From a virus, in the IMG/VR virus record IMGVR_UViG_3300028920_000022, positions 186,001 through 250,000 of that record: a DNA stretch of 64,000 bases. One strand, 5' to 3'. Of this stretch, positions 18,520-26,322 are shown one piece after another. The notes below the pieces were generated by a model. It saw only the letters and a list, made by a program, of their open reading frames with translations. It had not been told where the DNA came from and searched no databases. Numbering within the stretch: position 1 is the stretch's first letter; each line of letters starts with the position of its first letter. Both the position numbers and the translations under genes were made by a program.

Positions 18520-19746
18520 ATGTCTGAAATGCAAATTGAAACTGAAGAACTTGAGTTTTGTAAAATTAAAGTTAACTATACCGCAGACACGGATGTGGTT
18601 ATTGGTAAACAGCAGGAGGCAGTAAAGCAGCTGCGAAAATTGCCGGTTCCTGGTTTTAGACCGGGAAAGGCTACCGATACTGCGATTAAAATTCGTTATA
18701 AGGATAAGATTAAGGACTGGGTTTCTAAGGAAATGTTGCAGCAGGCAAATGATGATATCTTATTCGAAACTAAAATGCGCCCAATAGGCGATCATCAAGT
18801 TCAAGATCTAAAATTGAAAGATAATGAGTTTAGTTGTGAGCTGGTTTATTTAAAGAAACCTGATTTTGAACTAGGTAAATATCAAGAGCTTGAGATTCCT
18901 GAGCCGCATTTAGAAACCACCGTTGACGATTTACGCGAACAAATGTTGCAAAAACTTCGTGAACAACACGGTTCGTTGCGCCCGTATGAGGAAAATGATT
19001 TTGTTCAGGCGGGAGATGCTATAACTTTAGATTATGCAATATATGAAAATGATGCGAGCGGTAAAGTTTTGAAAGAAGAAACTGGGGCTGTGTATAATGT
19101 TGGCAGCAATGCTTTGCCAGGTGGTTTCGATGATAATCTCGTAGGAATGACCGCAGGTGAGAAAAGGGAATTTCCGTTGATGGGAAATGCGTTTGCTGTA
19201 GTAACCATGCATGCCGGATCTAAAAAGGAACCGTGCCCGCTAGATGATGAATTAGCTAAGAAACTTGGGGTGGAAAGTTTTGAAAAGGTTCGTTCAGAGG
19301 TTAATGCATCTGCCGAAAGACAGTTAAAAGGTCAGCGAGACCAGATGATTAGTGTGCAAATAAAGAATCAGCTAGTTAACAGTCATGATTTTGAAGTCCC
19401 ACCATGGTTATTAAGCATGGAAGCCCAGCAAATAGCTATGCAGGAAGGTGTAAAGTGGGAAGGTTTGGAAGAAGAAGCAAAAGAAAAGTTTCTTAAAAGG
19501 GCAAAAGATCAGATTAAATTTACACTAATAATGGATTCTATTACGTTGGCAGAACCTGAAATTCAGTTATCCGATGAGGAAGCTATACAATTGGTAGATA
19601 AGCGGCTTCAGATGATGGGCGTTCCTAATACACGCCAATTCATTGTCGAGTCGTCTCAGAATGGACGACTAGCTTCTTTAGTGGCTAATTTACGTAATGA
19701 TTATGCTATGCAGTGGCTAGTAGATCATGCAAAAATTGTGGAATAA
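18520..19746 (+). CDS. tig: Trigger factor (ribosome-associated chaperone)
   Basis: 408 residues, slightly shorter than the bacterial protein (about 430). The N-terminal domain contains the ribosome-binding signature PGFRPGKA (residues 44-51, corresponding to GFRxGK, which contacts uL23 at the tunnel exit). Residues about 160-240 form the FKBP-like prolyl-isomerase domain (GDAITLDYAIY, ALPGGFDDNLVGM, GEKREFPL). The rest is the helical chaperone body (VRSEVNASAERQLKGQRDQM). Trigger factor cradles nascent chains. Its presence in a phage, with deformylase, bL12 and IF-3, implies control of protein maturation on the host ribosome. Confidence 0.95.
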   Translation: MSEMQIETEELEFCKIKVNYTADTDVVIGKQQEAVKQLRKLPVPGFRPGKATDTAIKIRYKDKIKDWVSKEMLQQANDDILFETKMRPIGDHQVQDLKLKDNEFSCELVYLKKPDFELGKYQELEIPEPHLETTVDDLREQMLQKLREQHGSLRPYEENDFVQAGDAITLDYAIYENDASGKVLKEETGAVYNVGSNALPGGFDDNLVGMTAGEKREFPLMGNAFAVVTMHAGSKKEPCPLDDELAKKLGVESFEKVRSEVNASAERQLKGQRDQMISVQIKNQLVNSHDFEVPPWLLSMEAQQIAMQEGVKWEGLEEEAKEKFLKRAKDQIKFTLIMDSITLAEPEIQLSDEEAIQLVDKRLQMMGVPNTRQFIVESSQNGRLASLVANLRNDYAMQWLVDHAKIVE

Positions 19747-21163: not shown

Positions 21164-23830
21164 ATGGACTATGTAAGCCTTCATAATCATACCACATTTT
21201 CGATTATGGATAGCTTGATTAAGCCTTCAGAGCTTTTCAAGCGTGCGAAAGAGTTAGGACAACCCGCAATTGCCGTAACCGATCATGGTACGTGTGCAGG
21301 TTTGTGGGATTGTCTAAAGCTATCTCGCAGTACCGGTGTAAAACTGATCGCCGGGTGTGAGATGTATTTTGTAGATGATGTAAAAGATACTGATGCCAGA
21401 TTACGACATATTGTACTTTTAGCCAAGAACGCAGAGGGTTATAAGAATTTATTAACCTTGGTTAAAGCAGGTTTCGATAATAACATCATAGCAATGCAAA
21501 AAGTTTTTCCCCGCGTTGATTGGGAAATATTGGAAAAATATAGCTCAGGTTTAATTTGTACTACTGCGTGTGGAAATGGGATTATTTCACAGCTTTTAAA
21601 TGACAAAAAGTTTGATGAAGCCAAGGCACAAGCCAAACGATTGGTAGATATTTTTGGAGACGATTTAGCTATTGAGCTTCAGCCACACGCAATGCGTCGC
21701 AAGGCTAACTTATATGGCAACGAAATAGATCAGACATTTACAAATCGTCAATTAAAGAAATTAGCAGACGAGTTAGGGATCAAATGTATTGTTGCCACAG
21801 ATGCGCATTATGTCAGACCAGAGCAACACAAGGCTCACGATGTAATGTTGGCGATTGGGTCTAGGCAGCCTATTTCTTCTGGTGCCAGGCTTAAGTATAA
21901 CGTTCCAGATTTCTATATAAAGTCTGACGAAGAGATTCTGAGTAAGCTAAAGCGAGCTTTTGGTGAGGAGTTTGCCAAGGAGTGTATAGAAAATACCATT
22001 TATTTTTCTGATAAGTGTGAGTTTCCTGATTGGATTGATCCAAAATATTCCAACCCCAGCGGTAAGGAGTTGCCCGAATTCCCTGTAAAGGATCAAAAAG
22101 ATTATGGCGAATTTAAAGAGTGGTTGGAAAAGAATCCATTGGACGGTTTGGAAGAAGATAAGGCGTATTTGCGTTATAGGTGTGACAAAGCTGTAAATGA
22201 AAGGGTGCCTGCAGAGAAACAAGCGATTTATCGTGAAAGGTTAGAAACAGAATTTGAAGTAATAGAGTACCAGGGCTTTTCTTCATACATGCTCATTGTT
22301 TCTGATTATTTAGAGTTTTGTAGAAATAATAATATTAGGCTCGGTCCCGGTCGCGGTTCTTGTGGTGGCTGCATGATTGCGTATTTAATAGATATACACG
22401 TAGCTGATCCTTTAAAATATGGACTTATTTTTGAGAGGTTTCATAATAAAGAGAAGTCGGCGCCTGATATAGACTCAGACGTATGTCCGTCACAAAGACC
22501 AATGTTGCATGAGTACATTCGTAATAAATACGGAGAGGATCATGTAGCGCACGTCTCTAATGTAAACACATTAACGCCTAAACCGTATGTTAAAGCTATA
22601 GCGCGCACTTTTGAATATGGCGGAGATCGCAAAACAGCTGTTGCTATTGGTGCCGCCATAGCTGACGCTATACCTGCCGATATAAAAACTATAAAGTCTG
22701 CTTTGGAAAAAGCCCCATTGTTTGCCGAATATGCGAAACGATATCCTGAATTGGTAGAATTTGGTGATGATATTTGTGGCAAAGCTGTAGCTTGGTCTAC
22801 CCACGCTGGTGGTTTAGTTATTTGTGCCCGATCTTTGGTGGGACTTATTCCACTACGACGAGACAAGGAAGGGTCTGTTTCTATTGAGTATGAAAAAGAG
22901 CGTGCTGAGGAAAATGGTTTGTTAAAGATGGACACTTTGGCAATTGAAACATTGCACGATATTGATAACACATATGCTCTAATTAAAAAGGCGGGCAAAG
23001 AGTTGCCACCAGATCCACCAAATTATGATGAATGTGATGTTGCCACATATGATATGATTAGTAATGGTGACACTTTTGGTGTATTTCAGCTAGGAACCAG
23101 TGGTGGTACTATAGATTTGTGTAGAAAAGTTAAGCCTAAGAATCTTGATGATCTGGCGGTAATTAATAGTTTAGCTAGACCTTCCGCTAGGGACATTCGA
23201 AAAGATTATATACAAACCAAGAATGGCGATAAGCCGGTCGAAATAATCCACCCATCTTTGGAGCGCGCATTTAGACCAACATTGGGTTTTGGTTTATATG
23301 AGGAATGTTTAATGTTCTTGGCTCAAGACGTTGCCGGTTGGTCAATGTTGGAAGCGGATCGTTTGCGTAAGTTAACCAAAGCTAAAGGTAAATATCCAGA
23401 GAAGGTAAAGAAGTGGGAAGAAGATTTTATTCAGGGATCTATAGATAGCGGAGTTGGTAAAAAATTTGGCAAAAAGATTTGGAGTGAGGTGATAGAAAAG
23501 TTCGGTGGCTATGGGTTCAATCGGAGTTTGTACTTTTTGGAAACTGTTGATATATTCTCTAGTGCTGGGAAGTATCTTTATAAAAAACCAATACAGGATA
23601 TTCAACCTGGAGAATTCGTCCGATCAAGGGATGAAGAAACTGGTGAGGACATTTACATCGAAGTAATTGGAAATTATGATCACGGTAAATTAGAAGTTGT
23701 AGAAGTAGAATTAAACACCGGAGAAAAGGTTAAATGTACGCTGGATCATAAGTTTAGGGTACAGGAAACTGGCGAGATGCTTCCATTATGGAAAATTTTA
23801 GAAGATGGATTATCAATAGTGGTAGGATAA
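21164..23830 (+). CDS. dnaE: DNA polymerase III alpha, N-terminal part fused to N-intein
   Basis: 888 residues. Residues 1-787 are DnaE: PHP domain (SLHNHTTFS, VTDHGTC), the GPGRGSCGG palm region, the catalytic PDIDSD (434-439) and up to GGYGFNR. Residues 788-888 are an intein N-half: Ser1-LYFLETVDI, IQDIQPGEFV, and block B CTLDHKF with EMLPLWKIL. The gene then stops. The C-half is encoded at 25000-26322, and protein splicing in trans should rebuild a polymerase of about 1180 residues. It is the replicative polymerase candidate of this phage. Confidence 0.95.
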   Translation: MDYVSLHNHTTFSIMDSLIKPSELFKRAKELGQPAIAVTDHGTCAGLWDCLKLSRSTGVKLIAGCEMYFVDDVKDTDARLRHIVLLAKNAEGYKNLLTLVKAGFDNNIIAMQKVFPRVDWEILEKYSSGLICTTACGNGIISQLLNDKKFDEAKAQAKRLVDIFGDDLAIELQPHAMRRKANLYGNEIDQTFTNRQLKKLADELGIKCIVATDAHYVRPEQHKAHDVMLAIGSRQPISSGARLKYNVPDFYIKSDEEILSKLKRAFGEEFAKECIENTIYFSDKCEFPDWIDPKYSNPSGKELPEFPVKDQKDYGEFKEWLEKNPLDGLEEDKAYLRYRCDKAVNERVPAEKQAIYRERLETEFEVIEYQGFSSYMLIVSDYLEFCRNNNIRLGPGRGSCGGCMIAYLIDIHVADPLKYGLIFERFHNKEKSAPDIDSDVCPSQRPMLHEYIRNKYGEDHVAHVSNVNTLTPKPYVKAIARTFEYGGDRKTAVAIGAAIADAIPADIKTIKSALEKAPLFAEYAKRYPELVEFGDDICGKAVAWSTHAGGLVICARSLVGLIPLRRDKEGSVSIEYEKERAEENGLLKMDTLAIETLHDIDNTYALIKKAGKELPPDPPNYDECDVATYDMISNGDTFGVFQLGTSGGTIDLCRKVKPKNLDDLAVINSLARPSARDIRKDYIQTKNGDKPVEIIHPSLERAFRPTLGFGLYEECLMFLAQDVAGWSMLEADRLRKLTKAKGKYPEKVKKWEEDFIQGSIDSGVGKKFGKKIWSEVIEKFGGYGFNRSLYFLETVDIFSSAGKYLYKKPIQDIQPGEFVRSRDEETGEDIYIEVIGNYDHGKLEVVEVELNTGEKVKCTLDHKFRVQETGEMLPLWKILEDGLSIVVG
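23525..23827 (+). other. Split-intein N-half coding segment (IntN)
   Basis: 101 codons beginning with AGT (Ser1) right after the GYGFNR codons. The segment carries intein block A, a TxxH block B (CTLDHKF) and the end of the N-splicing domain. Ser1 instead of the more common Cys1 implies an ester rather than thioester first step. The insertion point is inside the conserved DnaE motif GYGFN-K/R-SHA. Confidence 0.85.
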
Positions 23831-23831
23831 T

Positions 23832-25031
23832 ATGGCAGGATATACTCTAGAACAATATTTAGAAAGAATACCTGAAAAATACAGGAACAAAGTTAAATTA
23901 ATAAATAAATTTCAAGGTAAGAGAACAAAAGTATTATTTACAAATGAAGTATGTGGGTGTGAAAGAGAGTATTTTTTGGGCGTGTTGGTGTTGCGTAAGA
24001 CGTTTGATGTATGTAAACATTGCAGATCACAATATGTAAGTAAAAAATATTTTTGTAAAAGGTGTGGCAAAGGGTTTATTACTGAGGAGTGGTTTCTACA
24101 ACATGATAAGAAATGTCTTGCTAAATTTAAAAATTTAATTGAGGGCGAAGATTATGTTACCTGTTACATTTGTGGTTTTCAGGCTTTAAGTCTAGGTTTG
24201 CATCTTCGTGTAAAACATGGGATTGATCCCGAGGAATATAAAAAAGATCATCAGATAATTTGTAGGAAATCTTCCGATATCTATGCTAAACAGAACTTAG
24301 AGAACTCAGAAGTTTTTCGTAGTTGGATAAAAGAAAGAGGACCTGAAGCCCAAGAATATTTAAATAAAAGGGGAAAAGAACTTAGTAAATCGATCATGTC
24401 TAACCCCGAGGAGCGAAAACGTCGTTCCAAAGCCATGGCTATACTGGATCGAACTGAGTATATGAGAAAAAAGGCATCAGAAACTGCTATTAAAACTTCG
24501 GCACGTAAGGACATACAGGAGAAGCGGGCTGCACAATTGAAACGATGGAGAGATAATAATCCTGAGATTTTTTATGAAAAATGTGTTAGTAAAATGCTAA
24601 ATACTTGGCATAGTAAGCCTGAAACTATACTATTTGAAGCGGTTTTAAATTACAATGATTATGTATTTAAGCGTAATCAAATAGTTAAATCTGAAATATT
24701 TCCAACTAAATCTAAACGAAAACAAATAGACATTGGAGACAAATCAAAAAGAGTATATATTGAATTTGATGGACAATTACATTTTAAAGAAACACAATTA
24801 AAACAGCTTGAACGTGTTCAATTAAAAGATGGCTTACTGGATAAACATATTATTAAACATGGTTGGACATTAATACGTGTTTCTTATGATCAATTTTCGT
24901 ATCGTAAACGAGATTTTGGGTTTAAAAAAGAATGTTTGGAAAAAGTATTCGAGATTTTAGATAATCCAACCCCGGGAGTACACACTATCGGGGAGGCGTA
25001 TGACGCTAAAAAAGAGACAAACAATGACTAA
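23832..25031 (+). CDS. Free-standing homing endonuclease, zinc fingers plus Vsr-like domain
   Basis: 399 residues, placed exactly between the two halves of dnaE. Several zinc-type cysteine pairs occur in the first half (CKHC, CKRC...C, CYIC with HLRVKH). A basic middle follows with repeated NUMOD-like helices (SNPEERKRRSKAMA, KASETAIKTS). The C-terminal nuclease-like domain resembles Vsr/EDxHD enzymes: KQIDIGD, VYIEFDGQLHFKE, HGWTLIRVSYDQF. By analogy with described fractured genes it would cut intein-free dnaE alleles and spread the locus. It overlaps the downstream C-intein gene by 32 bases. Confidence 0.85.
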   Translation: MAGYTLEQYLERIPEKYRNKVKLINKFQGKRTKVLFTNEVCGCEREYFLGVLVLRKTFDVCKHCRSQYVSKKYFCKRCGKGFITEEWFLQHDKKCLAKFKNLIEGEDYVTCYICGFQALSLGLHLRVKHGIDPEEYKKDHQIICRKSSDIYAKQNLENSEVFRSWIKERGPEAQEYLNKRGKELSKSIMSNPEERKRRSKAMAILDRTEYMRKKASETAIKTSARKDIQEKRAAQLKRWRDNNPEIFYEKCVSKMLNTWHSKPETILFEAVLNYNDYVFKRNQIVKSEIFPTKSKRKQIDIGDKSKRVYIEFDGQLHFKETQLKQLERVQLKDGLLDKHIIKHGWTLIRVSYDQFSYRKRDFGFKKECLEKVFEILDNPTPGVHTIGEAYDAKKETNND

Positions 25032-26322
25032 CATTAAATCTGTTCGTTCCATTGGTAAGGTTCAAACATATGATTTGGAGGTTGATCATCCGGATCATCA
25101 ATACTATTTGTCTAGTGGCATGCTCACCAGCAACAGTCACGCCACTTTCTACTCTATGGTTGGATATCATACCGCTTATCTCAAAGCCCATTATCCGTTG
25201 GAATTTTTGGTTGCTATTTTAATGAATAAAGTCAATTCTAACTCACCATCCGCAAAAGATAGCATAGCCAAAATTAAAGAAGAAATAAGAGCACTAAATG
25301 TTAATATTCTACCGCCAAACATAAACACATCAGAATTAACCTATTCAATTATTGATGATAAAACTTTGCTTACAGGCTTTGATGCTCTTAAAGATATGGG
25401 TAAGAACGCTATCCCCGAGATCTTAGCTAAACGTCCGTTTGATAGCTTTGAAGATTTCTTGCTCAAAACTGATGGTCAGAAAGTTACCGCCCCTGCCATC
25501 AAAGCCCTCGCCGCTAGTGGTAGCCTGGATTCATTCGGTTTAACTAGAAAACAAATGTATTTGTATGCTTCTGATATAAAAAAGAAAATACAAGTTCATT
25601 TAAAGAATAAAAGAGAAGGTGAGTTTAAATATCCTTGGCCGGCAGATATAGAGGAATGGACAATTCCTGAATTATACGCCATGGAACGTGAATATTTGGG
25701 AGAAGGTATCAGCGGAGATAGATTCCAAGTATATGGCGGATTTTTTACCAAGAAAGCTCCCAGTTTCAAAAAACTTCCTAAACTGCACCCTCCTCCACCA
25801 GATGATATGACGGAAAAAGAACAACGTAAATATACCAAACATATTACAATGTTGCAGGCGGAAGTAAAGAGTTTCTTTGAATTTAAGGTAAAAAAAGAAG
25901 ATAGTAAGATATTTGGCGAAGTAATGGCTAAAGTTGCCCTTTGTGATCCTTGGGGCAACCAAATGACTATGACTTGTTTCCCCGAGGGTTGGTTACATTT
26001 ACAAAACCGTGTTTCGGAACTATTGAATAATAAACACAAATTCGATACAGGGCTTGGTTTGTATATAAATGGCGAACTAAATTGGTACGATGGTGATATA
26101 TCATTAATATTTGGGGACGTAGCTCGTTGTTGTCCTGCTCCTCAGATGCCATCCGATAGAGATAATAAGAAGGTTACTATTCGTAGGTCCAAGAAGAAAA
26201 ACCCCAAACAAGAAGAGCCAGAGAGAGACATTCTATTGGAAGAAATAGAAGATGATTTGGTAGATCGTGGTTATTCCGATTTGGATGATGAAGATGACGA
26301 TGTACAGGACGGTTTTGTTTAA
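25000..26322 (+). CDS. dnaE: C-intein fused to DNA polymerase III alpha, C-terminal part
   Basis: 440 residues. Residues 1-45 are the intein C-half: VQTYDLEVDHPDHQYYLSSG (block F) and MLTSN (block G, final Asn). Residue 46 is Ser+1 of the extein, SHATFYSMVGYHTAYLKAHYP, which continues the DnaE motif broken upstream. The rest covers the C-terminal DnaE region (helix-hairpin-helix and beyond) with an acidic end. The start may be ATG 25000 or ATG 25024 (MTNIKSV, similar in length to known DnaE IntC pieces). Confidence 0.95.
   Translation: MTLKKRQTMTNIKSVRSIGKVQTYDLEVDHPDHQYYLSSGMLTSNSHATFYSMVGYHTAYLKAHYPLEFLVAILMNKVNSNSPSAKDSIAKIKEEIRALNVNILPPNINTSELTYSIIDDKTLLTGFDALKDMGKNAIPEILAKRPFDSFEDFLLKTDGQKVTAPAIKALAASGSLDSFGLTRKQMYLYASDIKKKIQVHLKNKREGEFKYPWPADIEEWTIPELYAMEREYLGEGISGDRFQVYGGFFTKKAPSFKKLPKLHPPPPDDMTEKEQRKYTKHITMLQAEVKSFFEFKVKKEDSKIFGEVMAKVALCDPWGNQMTMTCFPEGWLHLQNRVSELLNNKHKFDTGLGLYINGELNWYDGDISLIFGDVARCCPAPQMPSDRDNKKVTIRRSKKKNPKQEEPERDILLEEIEDDLVDRGYSDLDDEDDDVQDGFV

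Follow-up and report, generated by a model that had tools for sequence, protein, structure and literature searches.

The dnaE gene of a jumbo phage, which encodes a replicative DNA polymerase, is broken in two in a 64,000-nucleotide stretch of viral DNA (the window; positions 186001-250000 of G000, the 458,729-base virus record IMGVR_UViG_3300028920_000022). The two parts carry the halves of a split intein, IntN and IntC, and a separate gene for a putative homing endonuclease (HEN) lies between them. The arrangement is very probably a homing element, consisting of a split class-1 intein of the Ser1/Ser+1 type and a free-standing Vsr-like HEN, inserted at GYGFN(K/R)/SH of DnaE (a slash marks the break). 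A first-pass annotation of the window had described a 'fractured gene' in a replicative polymerase, and this description stands: two open reading frames (ORFs) with IntN and IntC and a free-standing endonuclease between them are found, with all anatomical parts present.

In the mechanism proposed here, the two polymerase halves would be translated separately. IntN and IntC would then come together and splice themselves out, joining R787 to the Ser of SHAT in a DnaE of 1182 residues. During co-infection the endonuclease would cut the unbroken dnaE alleles of related phages close to GYGFN(K/R)/SH, and repair would copy IntN-HEN-IntC as a unit into the cut allele. Upon later loss of the HEN the split intein would stay, and its halves might either become joined in a cis intein or end up separated by other genes.

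The broken dnaE gene and its intein

The locus order at window positions 21164-26322 is DnaE(1-787)-IntN, endonuclease gene, IntC-DnaE, with the coordinates and junctions claimed in the first-pass annotation (Table 1). The N-extein comprises the PHP, pol3_alpha and finger domains. DnaE family models cover residues 1-788 of the first ORF and are picked up again at residue 45-46 of the third, and therefore the break is exactly at GYGFNR/SHAT. The placement of the junction within GYGFNR-SHATFYS agrees with these model borders and with 64 related viral polymerases, in which the site is empty and the sequence reads straight through. An intein interrupts this codon in about 35 further viral contigs, and their IntN and IntC are clearly homologous to those of the window. 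C-extein coding runs to nucleotide 26319, and the computed spliced DnaE has 787 + 395 = 1182 amino acids. That an assembly error or frameshift has made a normal dnaE look broken is hardly credible, as nothing was found in its favour and the same arrangement recurs in many independent contigs, with precise junctions and open ORFs.

The residues of splicing can be followed in the family alignment: Ser1, the TxxH motif (block-B/N3 His), the NX His, the terminal Asn and Ser+1. All are present in the window, and on sequence criteria its intein is of the Ser1/Ser+1 (oxyester) class-1 type, although Pfam and NCBIfam intein models match it weakly. The block-B His is preceded by a His at exactly 22 residues in all Ser1/Thr1 members of the family. 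The Ser1 intein of Aes123 PolB1 has a matching spacing, with NX His68 and N3 His90 (PMC13014065), and the NX histidine is reported to be specific to Ser1 inteins (PMC10189870). The window intein is not cysteine-less; there is one Cys in IntN, within VKCTLDH. The first intein residue varies in the family, with Cys1 in L012, L024 and L025 and Thr1 in L129, L044 and L175 (L numbers denote the loci collected here). The NX position is Asn in the Cys1 members L012, L046 and L047, and His is kept in the Cys1 members L024 and L025. Inteins with Thr1 would be unusual.

Perhaps the halves are never spliced, and the polymerase works as two non-covalent subunits with the intein pieces as mere docking tails. 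There is a precedent in a ribonucleotide reductase that is split by a homing endonuclease and is active in the form of two peptides, according to Friedrich et al. 2007 (as cited in PMC10448857). This is nevertheless quite improbable for the phage DnaE. All splicing residues are retained, IntC is among the best-conserved parts of the element, and a relative with a cis intein has the same residues. In addition, purifying selection (a nonsynonymous rate, dN, below the synonymous rate, dS) is seen in IntN, HEN and IntC alike; for the two intein parts it speaks against mere docking tails.

The endonuclease gene and mobility of the element

The endonuclease gene has a G+C fraction of 0.33, vs 0.38-0.40 for the dnaE halves. 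Residues D300, E311, D313, H317 and D333, which form the EDxHD pattern, and the zinc-binding Cys and His residues are invariant in an alignment of 17 relatives. Matches to ROS_MUCR are found in 12 of 17 members of the endonuclease family and a DUF559 match in four. The top Foldseek match of the AlphaFold model is Escherichia coli Vsr (1VSR), a modest one (probability 0.96, E = 0.014). The E-x-D-xxx-H...D signature on a predicted Vsr fold places the enzyme in the EDxHD/Vsr type. The window HEN found no match in the phages collection and none by single-sequence patterns in viral contigs; its relatives in the viral contigs came to light only with a profile search.

The end of the HEN gene overlaps the start of IntC in many relatives; in the window the two share 32 nucleotides. 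Several relatives also have a purine-rich G-run at the same HEN 3′ end, just ahead of the IntC start. The C half of DnaE is probably translated from the Shine-Dalgarno-like site at 24990. A site of this kind, together with the overlap with IntC, would explain why the 3′ tail of the HEN gene survives loss of the rest.

The evidence for mobility comes from the relatives. Supported branches of the polymerase tree carry at least 10 changes between presence and absence of the intein, and the best tree has 13. The DNA of the sister loci L014 (interrupted) and L101 (empty) can be aligned across the joined flanks with no gap. Six pairs were compared at four-fold sites, and the strongest case is that of contigs L008 and L020. 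Their polymerases differ at 144 of 246 such sites (0.59, near saturation) and IntN+HEN+IntC at 34 of 138 (0.25; p = 1.1e-10). The cassette is far less diverged than the polymerase, and thus IntN-HEN-IntC has moved laterally between lineages as one unit. Judged by such comparisons, the family displays both precise presence/absence polymorphism and lateral transfer, in relatives other than the window's own copy. The suggestion in the first-pass annotation that the endonuclease could spread the break is thus supported indirectly by the relatives, where the element is patchily distributed and precisely inserted and one transfer of the whole cassette is seen.

Two other possible traces of homing did not hold. 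Residue -1 is K or R in 19 of 24 intein-bearing polymerases vs 11 of 64 empty ones, which often have M, V, L, A or I. An interpretation as escape of the target site loses its support once the tree is taken into account (independent pairs, median p 0.25). In five interrupted/empty pairs, no gradient that would point to co-conversion next to the insertion was found.

The split intein might function while the HEN is dead or domesticated in this phage, the whole arrangement having been inherited vertically. In the polymerase tree the window groups with L012 as its sister, the element is present in both, and the intein and HEN trees are not significantly contrary to this; moreover, several relatives have a degraded endonuclease or have lost it. 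However, the window HEN is open, with all invariant catalytic and zinc-finger residues in place, and in its family the element is patchily distributed and one lateral transfer is clear. A dead endonuclease is therefore unlikely.

It should be pointed out that several observations weigh against the interpretation as an active homing element. Trans-splicing, DNA cleavage and homing in co-infection are what we infer from the sequences. Vertical descent of the window and L012 elements is not rejected by the intein or the HEN tree (approximately unbiased (AU) test, p = 0.078 and 0.10); an incongruence between polymerase, intein and HEN, suggested by identities, was dropped. The penultimate residue of IntC is Ser, where His is usual, although cyanobacterial DnaE inteins likewise have Ser. 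Finally, a second polymerase may be encoded elsewhere, as G000 is perhaps incomplete. The first-pass annotation had pointed out that an intact second dnaE would make the broken gene dispensable; G000 has a single PF07733 match and a single HHH_6 match. In a family-by-family search of this record, which may be incomplete, neither a second DnaE nor DNA_pol_A (PolA) was present, and the intein copy described here was the sole one of its family. The phage nature of G000 is borne out by terminase, portal and UvsX-like genes. A phage-encoded homologue of trigger factor (Trigger_N, Trigger_C) lies just upstream of dnaE, at window positions 18520-19746.

Table 1. Features of the interrupted dnaE locus, in window coordinates
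Feature	Position	Strand	Basis or remark
ORF, DnaE N-half + IntN	21164-23830	+	stop 23828-23830
DnaE N-extein, 787 aa, ends GGYGFNR (Arg787, nt 23524)	21164..23524	+	Pfam PF02811, PF07733, PF17657; TIGR00594 over 3-788
IntN, 101 aa, Ser1, NX His (DHG), block B TLDH	23525..23827	+	family alignments; PDB profile matches to Npu DnaE; NX/N3 spacing 22
Putative homing endonuclease, free-standing, 399 aa, stop included	23832..25031	+	many related loci have a homologous ORF at this position
Ros/MucR-like zinc finger, aa 97-141	24120..24254	+	Pfam ROS_MUCR E=2e-5; PDB 2jsp E=1e-4 with family profile
Vsr/EDxHD-like nuclease domain, aa about 262-390	24615..25001	+	17-sequence alignment; AlphaFold model
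GGGGAGG, Shine-Dalgarno-like site for IntC-DnaE C half	24990..24996	+	inside 3′ end of endonuclease gene
ORF, IntC + DnaE C-half	25000-26322	+	from ATG 25000
IntC, 45 aa from ATG 25000 (37 aa if ATG 25024), ends LTSN, last Asn at nt 25134	25000..25134	+	
DnaE C-extein, 395 aa, starts SHATFYS (Ser+1), stop included	25135..26322	+	Pfam HHH_6 E=5e-19; NCBIfam DnaE models

States of the element in related viruses

The element is found in different states in related viral loci. The HEN is intact in the window, L012, L014, L003, L008, L016, L023, L025, L026, L029, L042, L127, L128, L175 and others, and is frameshifted in L007. In L002 (4016-6001), whose polymerase is 57% identical to that of the window, the slot is filled by a different ORF, a zinc-ribbon nuclease of 661 amino acids with a weak CapR match and a strong phrog_559 match. 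The N-terminal repeat of this nuclease resembles amino acids 7-67 of the window enzyme, which suggests modular swapping.

Deletion of the HEN has left relics in L028 (55 bits), L006 (30.5 + 16 bits) and L129 (11 bits), the best of 1200 shuffles reaching 6.2 bits. A C-terminal match in L024 (4.1 bits) falls below this value and was discounted as a relic. N-terminal matches to the HEN profile in HEN-less loci were also discounted where they overlap IntN in another frame. In L009 and L005 the HEN is not recognizable. A fused, contiguous cis intein is found in L004, from a phage that is 79% identical in DNA to the HEN-bearing L003. The dnaE halves are 3.5-4.6 kb apart in L032 (2311-6983) and L036 (3472-6793); several genes lie between them, among them one for a TadG-like protein in both loci and, in L032, genes for a TnpB-like protein and an adenine methyltransferase.

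The family also extends to remote polymerases (L016, L021, L022, L042 and L044), which are about 24-39% identical where aligned. Their inteins are 48-60% (IntN) and 67-78% (IntC, where present) identical to members of the family. A second intein or insertion is seen in the N half of dnaE, in the VGPARG/SAAGS region, in L005 (69-2150), L007 (57-2174) and L020 (upstream of 4433). In Alicyclobacillus phage KKP_3916 (OQ846916.1, 59313-64433), DnaE matches fall in three pieces over five annotated ORFs, and this gene is possibly interrupted too.

Thus the life history of such an element can be read in one family, with states that are empty, HEN-bearing and split, swapped, frameshifted, relic-only, fused in cis and dispersed. 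This makes testable the question of how naturally split inteins arise after loss of the endonuclease, as well as whether this route led to the split DnaE intein of cyanobacteria. The family is a source of naturally split Ser1 inteins, few of which have been characterized, and the natural Ser-to-Cys switches in L012, L024 and L025 are useful for studies of oxyester vs thioester splicing. The decayed, fused and dispersed series, the Ser1 chemistry class and the cyanobacterial kinship described below go beyond the first-pass annotation.

Kinship with DnaE inteins and comparison with known systems

When a profile of the phage inteins was compared with all solved structures, inteins of the cyanobacterial DnaE type came out on top (7qil and Npu; E about 1e-17), followed by Spl DnaX (4e-9) and gp41-1 (1e-7). 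In the reverse search, with Npu DnaE as query, E values for the phage family were 6.5e-16 to 5e-8, against 3e-6 for the best solved intein outside DnaE. The panel consisted of solved structures and the loci collected here, with some sequences entered by hand (Ssp, gp41-1 and the N-terminal residues of Npu and of the 7qil entry). For L004, the natural cis relative, an AlphaFold model built with family sequences (pLDDT 87.8) has the Npu DnaE intein 4KL5 as its best structural match (TM 0.81/0.85); Aes123 matches the fold and ranks well behind the DnaE inteins. The intein tree groups the phage family with cyanobacterial split DnaE, with support of 91/89, which is not conclusive.

The cyanobacterial systems (Npu, Ssp) resemble the window in having a split intein in DnaE with the same split position in the fold, and Npu also ends in SN. 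The window differs in that it has Ser1/Ser+1, not Cys1/Cys+1, and a HEN gene is still present. Its insertion site, after YGFN(K/R), is four residues downstream of the cyanobacterial Y/CFN; neither this cyanobacterial site nor Cys1/Cys+1 is found in the window.

In two further viral loci, L167 (2-5776) and L168 (1638-9846), dnaE is split at Y/CFN by Cys1 inteins of the cyanobacterial type. The halves are 1.3 kb apart in L167 and 3.4 kb in L168. The L167 IntN is 59% identical to Npu, and downstream of its polymerase lies a gene for a polymerase exonuclease subunit of phage type; in L168 an additional ORF of its own encodes the part with the PHP domain. Together with the phage family, these loci indicate that split dnaE of both types is present in viruses. 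Bacterial chromosomal dnaE genes (L146-L163; Chloroflexota, Planctomycetota and others) have contiguous Cys1...HN inteins of 188-461 amino acids at the same codon, and these are distant in sequence from the phage family (17-25 bits).

We know of no explanation for the origin of the cyanobacterial split DnaE intein. Common ancestry of the phage and cyanobacterial split DnaE inteins, in either direction, is plausible from these similarities. A more specific and tentative proposal derives the cyanobacterial intein from a fractured dnaE of a phage, of which it would be a relic: the element would have lost its HEN, its halves would have been driven apart, and the split form would have passed to cyanobacteria by acquisition or exchange. 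Reciprocal best similarity, sites only four residues apart, the relic gaps, the dispersed halves and L167/L168 are points for this reading. For the L167/L168 type, the opposite direction, from cyanobacteria to phage, is equally open.

Other phage replicative polymerases are also split by inteins. Examples are Aes123 PolB1, with a split intein of the Ser1 type (PMC11923092), and MIJ3 PolB, whose halves are separated by an ORF for an HNH endonuclease (PMC6892783). These are family-B polymerases interrupted at a different site, and the MIJ3 enzyme is of the HNH type, whereas the window HEN is Vsr-like. Homing endonucleases that combine CapR with EDxHD/Vsr are found in phage group II introns (PMC12350094). 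They share with the window HEN a Vsr-like C-terminal nuclease and N-terminal zinc/CapR-like DNA-binding repeats, and the 661-amino acid ORF of L002 looks like this type. The window enzyme differs in its Ros/MucR-like fingers and in its location in a split intein.

An open-literature search of partial coverage found no phage fractured dnaE. The original survey of fractured genes, that of Dassa et al. 2009 (NAR 37:2560), reportedly dealt with eight enzyme types. Those genes reportedly resemble the window in having a conserved enzyme broken by a split intein, a Vsr/EDxHD HEN gene between the parts and a phage setting. In the window the broken enzyme is the family-C replicative polymerase DnaE, and its relatives show the relic, fused and dispersed states.

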